Assembly (NCBI RefSeq): GCF_001659685.2 | Contig: NZ_LXYE02000010.1 | Coordinates: 1 to 64,000 of the forward strand | Direction: 5' to 3' | Source: Labilibacter marinus | GTDB lineage: Bacteria; Bacteroidota; Bacteroidia; Bacteroidales; Marinilabiliaceae | Length of the DNA: 64,000 nt | Shown: positions 41,685 to 47,207 of the stretch, piece after piece | Position numbering within the stretch: position 1 is the stretch's first letter | Layout: each line of letters opens with the position of its first letter | The notes under the pieces: generated by a model | What the model saw: only the letters and a program-made list of their open reading frames with translations | Database searches by the model: none | Told to the model about the DNA's origin: nothing | Program-made: the position numbers and the translations under genes

Positions 41685-42611
41685 TTATTGAAGTTGTTTT
41701 GACTTTTTCTTTGCTGCTCTTTTGTTGGCAAGGCTATACAAAATCAGGGAAATGCCGATGATTATCATTCCTACAATAGGAATTAATTCAGGTTGTTCAT
41801 CAGGAAGTAATATCCAGCTTAATAAAGCTCCAAATATAGGTATGATGAATTTCCAAATGTTTAAATCTGACACTAAAACGTTGGGACGCTGCAATAACAT
41901 AAACCAGATGGTAAAGGCAGCAGCCGATAAAAAGCTTAGCCAACCTAAGGATAAGAAATAGGGCAAAGGTTGATTAAAACCAGTAAAGGGTTGAGAGTAA
42001 AGCGAGATTAAAAATAATACCAAACCTCCAATGCTCATTTGCCAAGCACTTAATACGGTTGAAGGTAATTGTCCTTTTTGTTTGGCAACAAATACATTTC
42101 CAATTCCGGATGAAATATTGGCCAATACCAAAATTCCCATACCTATTAATTGTTGGCTACCTTGTTTGTCGTCCCAGCCTTTATTGTAGGCTATTAATAC
42201 AATTCCTCCAATACCTAAAGAGATGGTGAATAATTTCATGAACGATAGCTTGTCGTTTTTTTGCATGGCCGATGAAACCAATGCAGCAAACAAGGGCTGA
42301 GAACCAATTAAGATGGCTGCTATAGCTCCAGGAACCATACTTAATCCAGTATAAAAAAGACTATACAATATGATAGTTTGGAATAGTGAAACACGCAAAA
42401 TCAACCAAGGGTTTGTTTTGATGGCGTTTACAAATGTTTTTAAGTTTTTAGTTAAAGGGATGATTAATAATCCAGCAATGAAAAACCTTAAGCCCGCAAA
42501 CTGCAATGGTGTAGTGTATTCCAAACCAATTTTTATGCCGGCAAAGGCAGTTGACCAAAGTAAACAAGCAATAATAGCTAAAGTATATGTATGCGAAAAT
42601 ATTTTTCTCAT
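41685..42611 (-). CDS. EamA/DMT-superfamily transporter
   Basis: 308 residues from the ATG at 42611 with ten membrane helices arranged as two EamA repeats. Motifs include ACLLWSTAFAGIKIGLEY at the start and LLPDEQPELIPIVGMIIIG near the end. Members export amino acids, nucleotides or drugs. The longer frame to 42680 adds a soluble, Cys/His-rich stretch with no homology signal, so I prefer the later ATG. It is adjacent to the MFS gene downstream. Confidence 0.9.
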   Translation of the reverse strand: MRKIFSHTYTLAIIACLLWSTAFAGIKIGLEYTTPLQFAGLRFFIAGLLIIPLTKNLKTFVNAIKTNPWLILRVSLFQTIILYSLFYTGLSMVPGAIAAILIGSQPLFAALVSSAMQKNDKLSFMKLFTISLGIGGIVLIAYNKGWDDKQGSQQLIGMGILVLANISSGIGNVFVAKQKGQLPSTVLSAWQMSIGGLVLFLISLYSQPFTGFNQPLPYFLSLGWLSFLSAAAFTIWFMLLQRPNVLVSDLNIWKFIIPIFGALLSWILLPDEQPELIPIVGMIIIGISLILYSLANKRAAKKKSKQLQ

Positions 42612-42928
42612 GATAAAATGTAAATAAGTAATGTGTTCATCTGACCAACAATACATCCTCTGAAAGAAATAATACCCCAAAAAAGGTGTTGTAAGGTTTA
42701 TATCTGAAGGTTAGAAAATCAAAGCAAGAAGTGTTTTGAAAATTCTTTGCAAAGAAAGCTATTTACTATGATTTGTAAAATAAAAGACCCACAATATCAA
42801 AGATAGATTTACTATGATTTCTGAATTTGTTTAAATAAAGTAGGTAAAAACTGTAAGGAATTAGAAAGACTTGCGTCTATATCATCAAATAAGATAAAAG
42901 AGTCTATTAATCTTTAAATATAGTTGCG
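42612..42928. promoter_or_regulatory. Divergent promoter region with a direct repeat
   Basis: The 317 bases separating the EamA gene and the RiPP precursor gene contain no gene. A 14-base direct repeat ATTTACTATGATTT lies at 42761-42774 and 42807-42820, 46 bases apart, compatible with paired regulator sites on one helical face. No clear TAnnTTTG box was found near the precursor. Confidence 0.4.
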
Positions 42929-43357
42929 ATGAAATTAGAAAGAAAAAGTATCCTAAAAGGAGTTGTTATAAGTGGAATGATTGCTGGGGCAATGCCAGCT
43001 ATGGCTAATTCAACAGATTTATTTAATTACGATACAATGGGAAGTGGTGCCGAACTAAGAGCTGAACTGTTGGAGCAATATGGTTCTCCTATTGATGTTC
43101 AAAACTTAAATAGTGAGGATTTTTTACTGGGAGAGAATAAATGTGGAGAAGGCAAGTGTGGAGAAAAAGCCAAGAAAGAAGGTACTAAGGAAGCTAAGAA
43201 ATCAGAAACCAAAGAAAAGACTTCGGAGGCCAAATGTGGTGAAGCTAAGTGCGGCGAGAAAGGTAAAAAGGAAGCTACCAAAGAAGCTAAAAAAGAAAGT
43301 AAAAGTAAAACTAGCGAAGCCAAGTGTGGAGAAAGTACTTGTGGTGGAGGTAAATAG
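42929..43357 (+). CDS. hvfA: HvfA-like RiPP precursor (secreted, Cys-pair repeats)
   Basis: 142 residues. A signal peptide covers about 1-27 (AGAMPAMANS). It is followed by a short conserved core (NSTDLFNYDTMGSGAELRAELLEQ) and a Lys/Glu-rich tail with three modules. Each module has a Cys pair of spacing C-x4-C: Cys72/77, 103/108 and 133/138, in the text KCGEGKCGE, AKCGEAKCGE and AKCGESTCGG. The CGExxCG motif is the core modified in HvfA/bufferin precursors. The encoded modules differ in synonymous codons while the protein is kept, which suggests selection on the peptide. The neighbours are a DUF692 oxidase and a DUF2063 partner. The modification (thiazole/oxazolone-type chemistry) is inferred by homology only. 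Confidence 0.85.
   Translation: MKLERKSILKGVVISGMIAGAMPAMANSTDLFNYDTMGSGAELRAELLEQYGSPIDVQNLNSEDFLLGENKCGEGKCGEKAKKEGTKEAKKSETKEKTSEAKCGEAKCGEKGKKEATKEAKKESKSKTSEAKCGESTCGGGK
43139..43354 (+). repeat. Three-fold repeat in the HvfA-like peptide
   Basis: Residues 71-142 hold three modules at a spacing of 31 and 30 residues, each with a CGExxCG-type pair followed by a KK-x-K/E-rich spacer. The DNA is divergent at synonymous positions (tgtgga, tgtggt, tgcggc), so it is not a recent tandem duplication. Confidence 0.85.
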
Positions 43358-43365
43358 TTTGTTTA

Positions 43366-43408
43366 GGGCTACCTAAGGAAGATTTGTGAAGTAGGTTATA
43401 GGTAGCCC
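43366..43408 (+). terminator. Hairpin between precursor and modifying genes (possible attenuator)
   Basis: GGGCTACCT at 43366-43374 pairs exactly with AGGTAGCCC at 43400-43408 around a 25-base loop. No T-run follows, so termination would be partial. It lies nine bases after the precursor stop and 140 bases before the DUF692 gene. Such a hairpin may let the precursor be made in excess of its enzymes. Confidence 0.45.
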
Positions 43409-43549
43409 GTATTCGGTTAAGTTGTGTGTTAGGCTGTTGTTTGAGTATGAGAAAGATGTTGTATTTGTGTAGTTTTTGATTCTTGAGTTGAGCATATCTT
43501 TTCAGAATTTGAACAACAGCTCTTTTATTGATTTGTGACTGTTTTATGT

Positions 43550-44377
43550 ATGGGTAAGGTAGGATTAGGTTTTAGGCGCGATATTGCAGATGAGTTTTTA
43601 GAGAATGAAAGCTTTACGCCCGATTTTATAGAGTTTGCTCCCGAAAATTGGATGGGCATGGGGGGCTATTGGAAAAAAGTGCTAGACAAAGCGGCTGAAC
43701 GTTACCCGATTACTTGTCACGGACTTTCCTTATCTATTGGTAGTCCTGAAGCATTGGATTATCATTTTCTAAAGGATTTAAAGCAGTTTTTAAAAGAATA
43801 CCAAGTAAGTATTTATTCCGAGCATTTATCCTATACAAAGAGTAAAAACGCACATTTGTACGATCTCTTGCCGGTGCCATTTCGCGATGATGCCATTAAG
43901 CATATCGTATCGCGTATAAAAGAAGTTCAGGAAATATTAGAACGTAAAATAGCGATTGAAAATGTATCCTATTATGTAACTCCAGGTGCAGAAATGGATG
44001 AGGCTACATTTGTTAAAGCCATTGTTGAAGAAGCAGATTGTGAATTATTACTCGATGTTAATAATGTATATGTAAATGCTTTTAATCATGGTTACGATGC
44101 TATCGATTTTATCAATAAAATGCCTTTAGATAAAGTTTCATATATACATATGGCTGGGCACGAAAAGGTAAGTGATGATTTAATTATTGATACCCATGGT
44201 CAGCCAATCATTGACCCAGTGTATGAGTTGTTTGATTCTACTCTTCGTAAAATGAATCCAGTACCTGTTCTGTTGGAACGCGATTTTAATTTTGAAAATT
44301 TTGATGCAATTGTGGAAGAGTTCGGTCAGTTAAAAAGTATAACACATAAAGCTTGGGAGGTAAATCATGTATCTTAA
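43550..44377 (+). CDS. hvfB: DUF692 MNIO-type RiPP maturase (HvfB-like)
   Basis: 275 residues from the ATG at 43550. It is a TIM-barrel DUF692 protein, the multinuclear non-haem iron oxidase (MNIO) family. Probable iron ligands are His57 (CHGLSLSIG), His92 (SEHLSY), Glu137 (IENVSYY), Asp169 with Asn171/172 (LLDVNNVYVN), His200 (YIHMAGH), Asp214 and His216 (DTHG), and Glu243 (LLERDF). MbnB and HvfB enzymes of this type oxidise Cys residues in a precursor with a partner protein. Its 3' end overlaps the partner gene by 11 bases. A GTG at 43535 is a possible earlier start. Confidence 0.9.
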   Translation: MGKVGLGFRRDIADEFLENESFTPDFIEFAPENWMGMGGYWKKVLDKAAERYPITCHGLSLSIGSPEALDYHFLKDLKQFLKEYQVSIYSEHLSYTKSKNAHLYDLLPVPFRDDAIKHIVSRIKEVQEILERKIAIENVSYYVTPGAEMDEATFVKAIVEEADCELLLDVNNVYVNAFNHGYDAIDFINKMPLDKVSYIHMAGHEKVSDDLIIDTHGQPIIDPVYELFDSTLRKMNPVPVLLERDFNFENFDAIVEEFGQLKSITHKAWEVNHVS

Positions 44378-45107
44378 CAAAAGCACCATTGATATACAAA
44401 CACAGTTGGCAAGTTATTGCAGAACAGGCCAGGAACAGGAAATAGAAAAAGTTTCGCAGGAGCGTGTAAAGCATTACAGAAGATTAGTTTTTAGCAATGT
44501 AAAAAACACCCTCGAAACAGCCTACCCTATTACGCTTGAATGGCTAAGTGATGATGAATGGTTAAAATTAGTGAATGACTTTTTTGAAATGCATGATGCT
44601 CAAAGCCCCAAGATTTGGGAATTACCTAAAGAATTTATGGAGTTTGTAACTCAGAATAAATATGCTGCTACCTTTAATAAACCTGCTTTAAACAACTTGT
44701 TATTGGTTGAATGGGTAGAAATAGAAGTGCATACCATGATGGATAAAGAATGGCCTGCAGTAGAAGCTAGAGGTGAAGTGTTGTTGCTTACTCCAGAATA
44801 TCAGTTATTACATTTAGATTATCCGGTTCATATATTTAATGGCGATGATGCACAAGATAAAAAAGGGGATTGGTTTATTTATATTTTTAGAAATAGAGAA
44901 ACAGACGGAGTTCAGTTTTTAAATATTTCAGCTCTCCACGTATTTGTATTGGAGAAATTATATGAAACCCCACTTACCTTAGATGATTTGTTACCAATTA
45001 TTTCTGCTGTTTTTGGACTTAACGATATGAAAACCCTACAAAATCACTTGAAAACCTTTTTCTCTGACTTAAGAAAAAAAGGTGCTTTGTTATCTAAAAT
45101 AGCCTAA
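44367..45107 (+). CDS. hvfC: DUF2063 RiPP maturation partner (HvfC-like)
   Basis: 246 residues. The N-terminal half matches the DUF2063 domain (VKHYRRLVFSNVKNTLETAYPITLEWL near 30-57), a helical domain of MNIO partner proteins. The C-terminal half (about 130-246) resembles a winged-helix peptide-recognition element. In homologues the partner helps the oxidase bind and position the precursor. It overlaps the DUF692 gene by 11 bases, so production is coupled. No DoxX-type HvfD gene follows; the next gene is read toward it on the other strand. Confidence 0.88.
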   Translation: MYLNKSTIDIQTQLASYCRTGQEQEIEKVSQERVKHYRRLVFSNVKNTLETAYPITLEWLSDDEWLKLVNDFFEMHDAQSPKIWELPKEFMEFVTQNKYAATFNKPALNNLLLVEWVEIEVHTMMDKEWPAVEARGEVLLLTPEYQLLHLDYPVHIFNGDDAQDKKGDWFIYIFRNRETDGVQFLNISALHVFVLEKLYETPLTLDDLLPIISAVFGLNDMKTLQNHLKTFFSDLRKKGALLSKIA

Positions 45108-45123
45108 TGTTTAGAGAATAAAC

Positions 45124-46602
45124 CTACTCGTTAAATATGCGAATAACATCTTTATAATCTATTTGCTTCTTAAATTTAATGTAATCGATGAGGGCTTGCA
45201 CAGAAGTTTCTTTTGTGTTTTCTCCGGAGTCCACATGTTCAAAATTATAAGCAGATGCAATATAAGAGTTCATAGCAACCGTATAAGTTTTATCCACATC
45301 CAAGCGATTCCCTTGCATATCATTTAAGCCAATATAACCGCTCTGATAATATACTATTTGCATTCCCGATGGTTTTAAATCTCCCATACGACTATTTTTT
45401 ATCAGTGTAAATAGTTCTTTATGAGTAAGCGTAAATTTTATTACCTCATTACCAAAAGGGTCAATCTTGTATACATCTTTTGCCAATATATCGCCCTCAG
45501 GTAATTTATTTCGAATTCCTCCCGAATTTTGAAAAGCAATATCCACATTATATTTCCAAGTGATGGCATCTGTCATTAAGCTACCTAGTTCATCTTTTGA
45601 GTTTAATGGATGTGTGGCGGTTCCTAGTTTTTCGTATAAAATAGGGTTGTTGTTATTGTTGTAATCATTTACTACTTCTTGAATATCGTCATCTTTCTCA
45701 CCATAGTCATTCATATTTTTTAGGTAAGCATTTTTACTAACTACCGCTTTGTTTTTTACTTGAATATGTACAACGCCGATATGCTTTCCGTTAGATCCTG
45801 CTTGACATACCAAGGCATTGTTAAATATTTGTGGTTGATGCACTGTGGCATGCGAGTGTCCTCCAATAATTAAATCAATTTCAGGATTATCATTGGCCAG
45901 TGTTTCATCCGACCCTATTCCTAAATGAGATAATATGATAAATAAATTATCCTTTTCTTTAAGATGGGTGTATTTTTTAATTTCTGTTTTATAATATGGA
46001 AACTCACAGCCTAATACTTTATCAGGATGGGTAGATGGAATATACTTTTCTTCAACTTTAGTTCCTGTTTCAATTAACCCCAGTGTTACTATTTCAAAAC
46101 CTTCTTTCGACTTTAATACTTTATAGGCCTCTGGTTGATTTAAAATGCCAGATGTGGCATCTATATTTGCGCAAATAAACGGAAATTCTGCTTGAGCAAT
46201 GCGCTGATTAAGGATGGTTTGACCATAATCGAATTCGTGGTTGCCAATTACTGCCAAGTCCACATTTATCTTATTCATTAGGTCAATCATAGGATAGCCT
46301 TTATCCAAATGCATATCTACCATCGGATTGCCGCTAAATACGTCTCCAGCGCAGAGCACAAATACATTTTCGCAAGTATCCTTAACTCCATTTATAAATG
46401 CAGCCATTTGCGGAAATGCATCTATGTTACCATGTACATCATTTATATGCAGAATGACAATACTTTCATTAATGTCTTCTTTTTTATCAGCAGGTGTTGG
46501 GGCAGGAGATGAGTTATCTTCTTTATTACAAGCGCTAAATACAAATACTACAGCAAGTAATAATAGCGTGTGAAGAGTATTCTTTAATTTAAATATTTGC
46601 AT
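45124..46602 (-). CDS. Full-length 5'-nucleotidase lipoprotein
   Basis: 492 residues. The lipobox FVFSAC at residues about 19-25 is followed by a Ser/Pro linker. The metallophosphoesterase domain covers about 45-310 (LHINDVHGNID, GNHEFDYG, SHLGIGSDE, IGGHSHATVHQP) and the C-terminal 5'-nucleotidase domain covers about 330-490 (SGGIRNKLPEGDI, PFGNEVIKFTLTHKE). It should degrade extracytoplasmic nucleotides or 2',3'-cyclic phosphates. The two halves are fused here but split in the operon at 1975-3659. It converges with hvfC, 16 bases separating the stops. Confidence 0.94.
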   Translation of the reverse strand: MQIFKLKNTLHTLLLLAVVFVFSACNKEDNSSPAPTPADKKEDINESIVILHINDVHGNIDAFPQMAAFINGVKDTCENVFVLCAGDVFSGNPMVDMHLDKGYPMIDLMNKINVDLAVIGNHEFDYGQTILNQRIAQAEFPFICANIDATSGILNQPEAYKVLKSKEGFEIVTLGLIETGTKVEEKYIPSTHPDKVLGCEFPYYKTEIKKYTHLKEKDNLFIILSHLGIGSDETLANDNPEIDLIIGGHSHATVHQPQIFNNALVCQAGSNGKHIGVVHIQVKNKAVVSKNAYLKNMNDYGEKDDDIQEVVNDYNNNNNPILYEKLGTATHPLNSKDELGSLMTDAITWKYNVDIAFQNSGGIRNKLPEGDILAKDVYKIDPFGNEVIKFTLTHKELFTLIKNSRMGDLKPSGMQIVYYQSGYIGLNDMQGNRLDVDKTYTVAMNSYIASAYNFEHVDSGENTKETSVQALIDYIKFKKQIDYKDVIRIFNE

Positions 46603-46994: not shown

Positions 46995-47207
46995 ATGATT
47001 AAAGAATGTCCTAAATGCAGTCAGGCATTTAATTGTAGAAATGATGAGATTTTTGAGTGCCATTGTATTTATGTACCTGTATCGGGTGAGGCTCAAAAGT
47101 ACCTGGCAGAGAAGTACAAAGATTGTTTATGTAATATTTGTTTGCGTGAAGTAGCAGCTATGTTCTCAAGCAAATTAGTAGCACAAAAAGAATGCTGTTC
47201 GCATTAA
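46995..47207 (+). CDS. Cysteine-rich CWC-type small protein
   Basis: 70 residues with ten Cys: C5xxC8, C14, C22xC24, C44xC46xxC49, and the terminal C67C68 before SH. It matches the small cysteine-rich CWC family (Cys_rich_CWC). The conserved N-terminal KECPKC and central CLCNICL are visible. Function is unknown; a metal-binding role is likely. It is directly preceded by a cobalamin riboswitch and is the only gene after it, so expression is expected to be repressed by cobalamin. Homologues can occur with cobalamin transport or salvage genes. Confidence 0.85.
   Translation: MIKECPKCSQAFNCRNDEIFECHCIYVPVSGEAQKYLAEKYKDCLCNICLREVAAMFSSKLVAQKECCSH

Follow-up and report, generated by a model that had tools for sequence, protein, structure and literature searches.

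A probable hvfABC peptide locus of Labilibacter marinus and a putative conserved ECF-type promoter before its precursor gene

The stretch analysed here comprises 64,000 nucleotides of Labilibacter marinus DNA (positions 1 to 64,000 of contig NZ_LXYE02000010.1, assembly GCF_001659685.2; hereafter the window) and carries, on the plus strand at 42929-45107, three co-directional genes (open reading frames, ORFs), hvfA-hvfB-hvfC, which most likely make a secreted, modified copper-binding peptide. We regard it as likely that the trio is an hvfABC (oxazolin/captophorin) locus for a ribosomally synthesised and post-translationally modified peptide (RiPP), in which up to six Cys are predicted to become 5-thiooxazoles and the product is predicted to bind copper. 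The locus is probably real and working, with a gene content ordinary for the family, and a conserved promoter of the extracytoplasmic function (ECF) type, with -35 and -10 elements, is well supported before hvfA. The earlier note on this DNA, made from the letters alone, missed that promoter and its sigma/anti-sigma link, and the regulatory and modular pattern around the locus is the part worth following.

42929 to 43357, plus strand: hvfA, secreted precursor of 142 residues, Lys/Glu-rich, with the NF050137 domain, aligned with 25 relatives
43550 to 44377, plus strand: hvfB, peptide maturase of the MNIO family (DUF692), matching NF003818, with nine iron-ligand positions
44367 to 45107, plus strand: hvfC, partner protein with DUF2063 and a RiPP recognition element (RRE) fold, by PF09836, PF22106 and fold match

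The Pfam matches within the trio lie far above chance (PF05114 at 1e-101, PF09836 at 1e-17 and PF22106 at 5.6e-10), and HvfB passes the HvfB equivalog model NF003818 with 389 bits against a cut-off of 360. For hvfB, the ATG at 43550 (MGKVGLGF) was judged a likelier start than the GTG at 43535 with which the ORF list opens the frame 43535-44377. All nine iron-ligand positions are present. H97, E142, D174, N177, H205, D219, H221 and E248 were mapped by alignment to VcMbnB and TglH, for which the ligands have been named (PMC8888699 and PMC10880893), and H62 was assigned by its position, 35 residues before H97, the corresponding pairs H55/H91 and H71/H107 being 36 apart. Neither the nine ligands nor the catalytic-base position D250 vary across the 40 rows of the HvfB alignment, which holds 39 loci, one of them from Chlamydiae, and the window. 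Three further positions, R14 (R in 40 rows), R15 (R in 20, K in 19, D in 1) and F251 (F in 36, Y in 4), were matched by motif to R15, R16 and F250 of FonB and fit the Lys-Cys class of MNIO enzymes, which has an active-site Arg-Arg and Phe (PMC12668002). HvfC, encoded directly after the MNIO gene, passes both PF09836 and PF22106, and its AlphaFold model (20 sequences; pLDDT 89.2) is closest to 3DEE (E 1.7e-8, TM 0.65/0.79), followed by the TglHI entries 8hci and 8hi7.

The precursor HvfA has its Cys at 72, 77, 103, 108, 133 and 138, and is organised as follows, the signal peptide and secretion being a reading of the sequence by eye:

42929 to 43006, plus strand: Sec-type signal peptide, residues 1-26, with cleavage placed by eye after AMPAMA and a predicted helix at 6-18
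43037 to 43060, plus strand: leader motif MGSGAELR, residues 37-44, from the alignment, candidate HvfC docking site
43142 to 43159, plus strand: Cys pair 1 (C72, C77), from the HvfA sequence
43235 to 43252, plus strand: Cys pair 2 (C103, C108), from the HvfA sequence
43325 to 43342, plus strand: Cys pair 3 (C133, C138), from the HvfA sequence, the second Cys in an ESTCG context

Gly follows all six Cys, and Lys precedes five of them (KCG), the sixth being preceded by Thr (TCG); FonBC needs a small residue after the Cys and tolerates Thr before it (PMC12668002). Modules 1 and 2 form a repeat at the DNA level, 63 nt long, 78% identical and spaced 93 nt (31 codons) apart. The leader motif sits between the signal peptide and the Cys region, and its residues G38 and R44 are invariant in all 26 aligned precursors. 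In the AlphaFold model (26 sequences), HvfA is mostly disordered (mean pLDDT 50.2); the best-modelled block is a predicted helix at 40-51 that overlaps the leader motif (pLDDT 71). The model contains no strands and therefore gives no sign of the beta-helix reported for precursors with 17-residue repeats (PMC12452194). The MGSGAELR leader may dock on HvfC; in FonA, no residue ahead of the core was essential on its own (PMC12668002). Given a locus of the HvfABC type, as many as six Cys open to modification and iron-ligand positions that are all intact, a metal-binding role for the product is the best inference.

In these respects, the account of the trio in the earlier note holds: the 142-residue ORF encodes a secreted Lys/Glu-rich peptide with Cys pairs 72/77, 103/108 and 133/138, the DUF692 protein keeps its full iron ligands (eight aligned, H62 by position), the DUF2063 gene overlaps it by 11 nt (ORFs 43535-44377 and 44367-45107), and the profile matches together with the ligand positions agree with a RiPP locus of the HvfABC type in which as many as six Cys could be modified. 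The claim that no DoxX gene belongs to the locus was likewise confirmed, since a genome search at E <= 0.001 found no DoxX-domain ORF in the window and the genome's sole match is a 408-residue protein on another contig. The name HvfD given to the missing DoxX partner was wrong, the protein of hvf loci being called HvfX (PMC13419390).

The features that had been said to set the locus apart fared less well. Three modules are also found in Haemophilus influenzae, whose HvfA repeats AEGKCGEGKCG three times and has its six modified Cys in three pairs (PMC13419390). The window resembles that hvfABC + hvfX system (oxazolin) in its secreted six-Cys precursor, its MNIO and its DUF2063/RRE partner, and differs from it in phylum, in the absence of HvfX, in the 25-26 residues of Lys/Ala/Glu linker between Cys pairs, and in motifs more varied than AEGKCGEGKCG. 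Wide module spacing is usual in the Bacteroidota relatives, where it is also variable. The comparison set holds 49 loci (L001-L031 and L033-L035 titled Bacteroidota, L032 a Chlamydiae metagenome-assembled genome), and after removal of rows without the regex leader motif and of duplicate records, 37 leader-bearing precursors remained, with 4 to 8 Cys each and gaps of 5 to 56 residues. They have 224 Cys after the leader, preceded by Lys in 205 cases and followed by Gly in 222. In all nine other loci of the family, gaps of 19 to 42 residues lie between the Cys pairs or triples. The missing DoxX gene is no distinction either, since the fon cluster consists of MNIO, partner and precursor only (PMC12668002) and 17 of 39 assessable loci of the Bacteroidota clade have none after hvfC. 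Like fonABC of Fontimonas thermophila (fontiphorin), the window has a minimal trio, the active-site residues of the Lys-Cys class and Cys-Gly sites; unlike that pseudomonadotal cluster, with its seven modified sites and EGKCG repeats, it has six more variable sites. The Neisseria gonorrhoeae cluster NGO1944-NGO1948 (gonophorin; NgoC is 3DEE; PMC12668002) likewise combines an MNIO, a DUF2063 protein and a periplasmic peptide. There, consecutive locus tags place the genes beside the ECF gene NGO1944 (PMC2954202), as in most Bacteroidota relatives, whereas both the sigma gene and the DoxX gene that neighbour that cluster are absent from the window locus.

The promoter was recognised upstream of hvfA at the following position:

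42852 to 42879, plus strand: putative ECF-type hvfA promoter, TGTAAGG-N15-CGTCTA, from upstream alignment and motif count

The motif emerged from an alignment of ten upstream regions. Its strict form, TGTAAG-N16-CG[AT]C, was counted in 41 upstream regions of at least 100 nt, some of them from close relatives, leaving out duplicates, Chlamydiae and Pseudomonadota-type loci, and MNIO-less peptides. It precedes 24 of these hvfA genes, the window's included (nine of the ten discovery loci and 15 of the 31 others), and was found neither in 100 rounds of dinucleotide shuffling nor at other spacings from 10 to 23. Among the loci left out, a looser pattern lies at the usual place in L062 and at -174 in L037, and nothing comparable was seen in L032, L036, L038, L048 or L063. 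Within this genome, the exact TGTAAGG-N15-CGTCTA has a single match (42852-42879). TGTAAG-N16-CGTCTA has two, the second of which (C1:10220) falls within an ORF of the other strand and was judged a chance match. Promoter-like motifs also occur within the 3' part of sigma genes (L088:1528, L062:5253, L145:3841), where they may be coding coincidences or internal anti-sigma promoters. A second element lies between the precursor gene and the enzyme genes:

43366 to 43408, plus strand: stem-loop in the hvfA-hvfB intergenic region, its 10-bp stem perfect (fold z of the whole region -3.22)

In 32 of 37 loci, the window included, the hvfA-hvfB intergenic region is more stable than its shuffled versions (z < -1.65; regions of at least 40 nt, one being too short, with L029 and L032 left out). 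The stem-loop is possibly an mRNA processing or attenuation element and could plausibly keep the precursor above the enzyme level; the same picture would come from an ordinary terminator or a processing site. In a Rfam scan of 42000-46000, the only match was to a snoRNA, below threshold, and was put down to chance.

Of 31 assessable loci (a subset of L001-L034 plus the window), 22 have an ECF sigma gene no more than 1.2 kb upstream of hvfA and in the same orientation; the window has none. Twenty of the linked sigmas score at least 147 bits against one of two queries, the other two scoring 27 and 33, and an ORF with the H-x3-C-x2-C zinc motif of zinc-binding anti-sigma (ZAS) proteins follows the sigma gene in 19 of the 22 loci. 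For the three linked sigma proteins that were scanned, TIGR02943 was the best model, with each score below its cut-off. The sole such sigma of this genome at E <= 1e-20 is encoded on contig C41, beside an apparent fabD gene, and is paired with a 91-residue protein bearing the full ZAS pattern; genome G331 has the same arrangement. This pair, a paralogue of the hvf-linked one, is the best candidate regulator, a weakly supported one. We infer the pairing of the promoter with its sigma, whose identity is not well supported. Two further observations concern these genes: in G331 (L089:1501-2151), a thiol-peroxidase/ResA-like gene, below the cut-offs, has the exact motif 54 nt upstream, and in G328 (L092) the sigma/ZAS pair is followed by genes that read as thioredoxin-like and peroxiredoxin-like.

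Control by an ECF sigma through a bipartite promoter is also found in the Caulobacter sigF/NrsF regulon, whose operons we take to hold bufferin MNIO genes and whose NrsF is, to our knowledge, not a ZAS protein. Its promoter reads GTAACC-N16-CGAA (PMC3511200), and, unlike here, sigma and NrsF accompany DUF2282 bufferins (PMC12452194). Closer to the present case, the four-gene DoxX/hvf cluster of H. influenzae depends strongly on RpoE2 under hypochlorite, and RpoE2 is an ECF sigma with a ZAS anti-sigma, encoded, by its locus tags, away from the hvf cluster (PMC7907618). In the literature listings searched and in the main-text parts of PMC12452194 and PMC12668002 that were covered (supplements lay outside this search), we found no account of a Bacteroidota hvf promoter or sigma linkage. 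What is new here is the ECF-type promoter before hvfA, the linkage to an upstream ECF sigma gene, usually with a zinc-type anti-sigma, the restriction of leader-bearing precursors to genomes with an MNIO, and two genomes that combine promoter, sigma and anti-sigma with a leaderless Cys-repeat peptide and HvfX in the absence of an MNIO match.

Several results weigh against this reading of the locus and its control. HvfC scores 139.6 bits against the HvfC equivalog NF050145, 2.4 under the cut-off of 142. HvfA reaches only 22.9 bits against the HvfA equivalog NF050188 (cut-off 95); of five other MNIO-linked Bacteroidota precursors, four score 17.9-27.8 bits and L031 is not among the listed matches, and two MNIO-less peptides score 49.2 and 24.2. 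HvfA passes the KCGExKCG domain model NF050137 (28 bits, cut-off 19.5), and a six-frame search of the whole genome with that model gave no match at E <= 0.001; the precursor of L001 is also below this cut-off, at 15.8 bits. The strict promoter is missing from 17 of the 41 hvfA genes, six of which carry a site 5.7 to 6.5 bits below the consensus site. One-mismatch matches to the motif are fewer in this genome than those of a reversed control pattern, and a one-mismatch regulon scan of three genomes did not rise above the reversed control. As for the regulator, the C41 sigma sits in a 25-row clade in which 24 rows are unlinked, and is not an orthologue of the linked sigma; its anti-sigma falls below the NF052368 cut-off (45.9 against 50); and a similar sigma occurs in 24 of 236 genomes of the order without MNIO and is absent at threshold from two of the 11 with one.

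We consider it unlikely that the locus is decaying, that is, that the genus lost HvfX together with the linked sigma/anti-sigma pair and the remainder is on its way out. HvfX was sought with one seed protein in the sequence around each locus and called absent only where more than 1.3 kb was available. In a 42-row clade (Bacteroidota and L032), DoxX follows hvfC in 22 loci, is absent in 17 and could not be judged in three; in L056 (G103), one of the 17, a DoxX match lies about 3.6 kb off on the other side of hvfB. On the 53-row HvfB tree, the DoxX label has to change at least seven or eight times. One DoxX protein encoded at such a locus is recognised by the HvfX model NF050144, and HvfX in the cluster is a frequent, not obligatory captophorin trait, absent here and likewise in the nearest row, L001 (Labilibacter sediminis, 77% identity). 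With no HvfX at the locus, its function would be dispensable here or supplied elsewhere in the cell. Among the nine other family loci, DoxX is present in six, absent in L083, which belongs to the same genus, and two end too soon, so that HvfX is found in six of seven judged loci and missing from the congener, as decay would have it. Seven of the nine genomes of the genus lack an MNIO, and the Cys contexts of HvfA (ENKCG, EAKCG, ESTCG) vary more than in many relatives, which have EGKCG. Against decay, the three ORFs, the iron-ligand positions and the promoter are all intact, and dN of hvfB lies far below dS in the comparison with the congener L001 (0.18 against 1.62), as under purifying selection.

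The Cys-rich peptide might instead act largely unmodified, as a thiol metal buffer or redox sink, with HvfB and HvfC modifying it in part or not being needed; this seems hardly probable. It draws support from two genomes in which promoter, sigma, ZAS-motif anti-sigma, Cys-repeat peptide and HvfX occur without an MNIO match:

L144, 259 to 2352: MNIO-less locus of G053 (99% complete), with motif, Cys-repeat peptide with three wide-spaced pairs, HvfX-like DoxX, ECF sigma, ZAS-motif anti-sigma
L062, 4731 to 6909: MNIO-less locus of G118 (90% complete), with ECF sigma, ZAS-motif anti-sigma, motif, Cys-repeat peptide, HvfX-like DoxX

No MNIO match was found in the assembled sequence of either genome, and the unassembled parts could hold one. 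Neither peptide has a leader, and this, with hvfB intact and under purifying selection, argues against an unmodified product here. Of 247 genomes of the order, 11 have a PF05114 match, as do 11 of the 71 family genomes (10 of them above the cut-off) and two of the nine from the genus. Each of the 11 MNIO genomes of the order matches the precursor profile A1 over almost its whole length; six of them (G000, G007, G040, G130, G172 and G176) supplied rows to the profile, and the other five are independent of it. In G202, the end-to-end match lies on a contig other than that of the MNIO, whose own neighbour matches partly. The other 236 genomes held nothing comparable, only seven weak matches of at most 36.2 bits, six starting beyond profile position 50 and the seventh, in G118, from position 7 at 23.8 bits; read directly, that G118 peptide lacks the LGSGAEVR motif. 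Since full-length, leader-bearing matches occur only in MNIO genomes (11 of 11 against none of 236), the leader tracks the MNIO. The earlier note had tied its case to precursor homologues not occurring without the enzyme genes; across the 247 genomes this stood for full-length, leader-bearing precursors and failed for leaderless Cys-repeat peptides. Two EF-hand-like proteins, recognised by eye, with EGKCG repeats near both ends (L146:2033-2638, L147:1955-2494) also come from genomes without an MNIO match.

That HvfB is an MNIO of another type, with bufferin, chryseobasin or methanobactin chemistry, is very improbable: the MNIO family is common to all and the BufB model still gives 281 bits, yet BufB (cut-off 310), ChrH (70 bits, cut-off 600) and MbnB (53.6 bits, cut-off 325) all stay below their cut-offs where the HvfB model is exceeded, and the precursor, with its Lys-Cys-Gly pairs, gave no DUF2282 match in a Pfam scan.

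Under the hvfABC reading, envelope thiol or metal stress would inactivate a zinc-type anti-sigma and free its ECF sigma, which would read TGTAAGG-N15-CGTCTA and transcribe hvfA and hvfBC, as the promoter and the phylum-wide linkage suggest. HvfC would hold the HvfA leader around MGSGAELR, and HvfB, a multinuclear iron enzyme, would use O2 to turn up to six Cys, each with Lys or Thr before and Gly after, into 5-thiooxazoles with loss of four H apiece, judging by its homologues. Sec would export the product, which could then hold excess Cu(I) in the periplasm. We also put forward, tentatively, a broader, modular view that we think less likely to be right than wrong. In it, a Bacteroidota ZAS/ECF switch would rule an envelope thiol-stress regulon with Cys-repeat peptide and HvfX as its core, and MNIO/HvfC and the LGSGAEVR leader would form a detachable module: G053 and G118 retain the peptide and HvfX but no MNIO match, and the window retains the peptide and its MNIO, lacks HvfX and has an unlinked switch. 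The peptide would then work either as a plain thiol or as a thiooxazole, and oxidation would trigger it as well as copper.

Outside the trio, an EamA-family gene (41685-42680) is divergent and a 5'-nucleotidase gene (45124-46602) convergent. The EamA gene, encoding a drug/metabolite transporter (DMT) family protein, adjoins hvfA also in the congener loci L001 and L083, and a DMT transporter gene of H. influenzae is likewise RpoE2-controlled (PMC7907618). Synteny of the 5'-nucleotidase gene across the genus was uninformative, being present in one of nine genomes, its own. Further downstream, 46995-47207 encodes a small Cys-rich CWC protein (PF14375). Elsewhere, an hvf-like locus of the Chlamydiae genome L032 (5539-8028), which includes DoxX and a precursor of the GSCGE type, forms a long branch within the Bacteroidota clade of the HvfB tree, and in L029 (7999-8409) the precursor gene lies downstream of hvfBC, not upstream.

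If these readings are true, Haemophilus-type regulation, an ECF sigma with a zinc-type anti-sigma over hvf genes, would extend to another phylum, and a promoter readable from sequence would offer a direct handle on the inducers of hvf peptides. The tracking of leader and MNIO would name a likely docking motif, and the MNIO-less loci would serve as natural controls for what modification adds.

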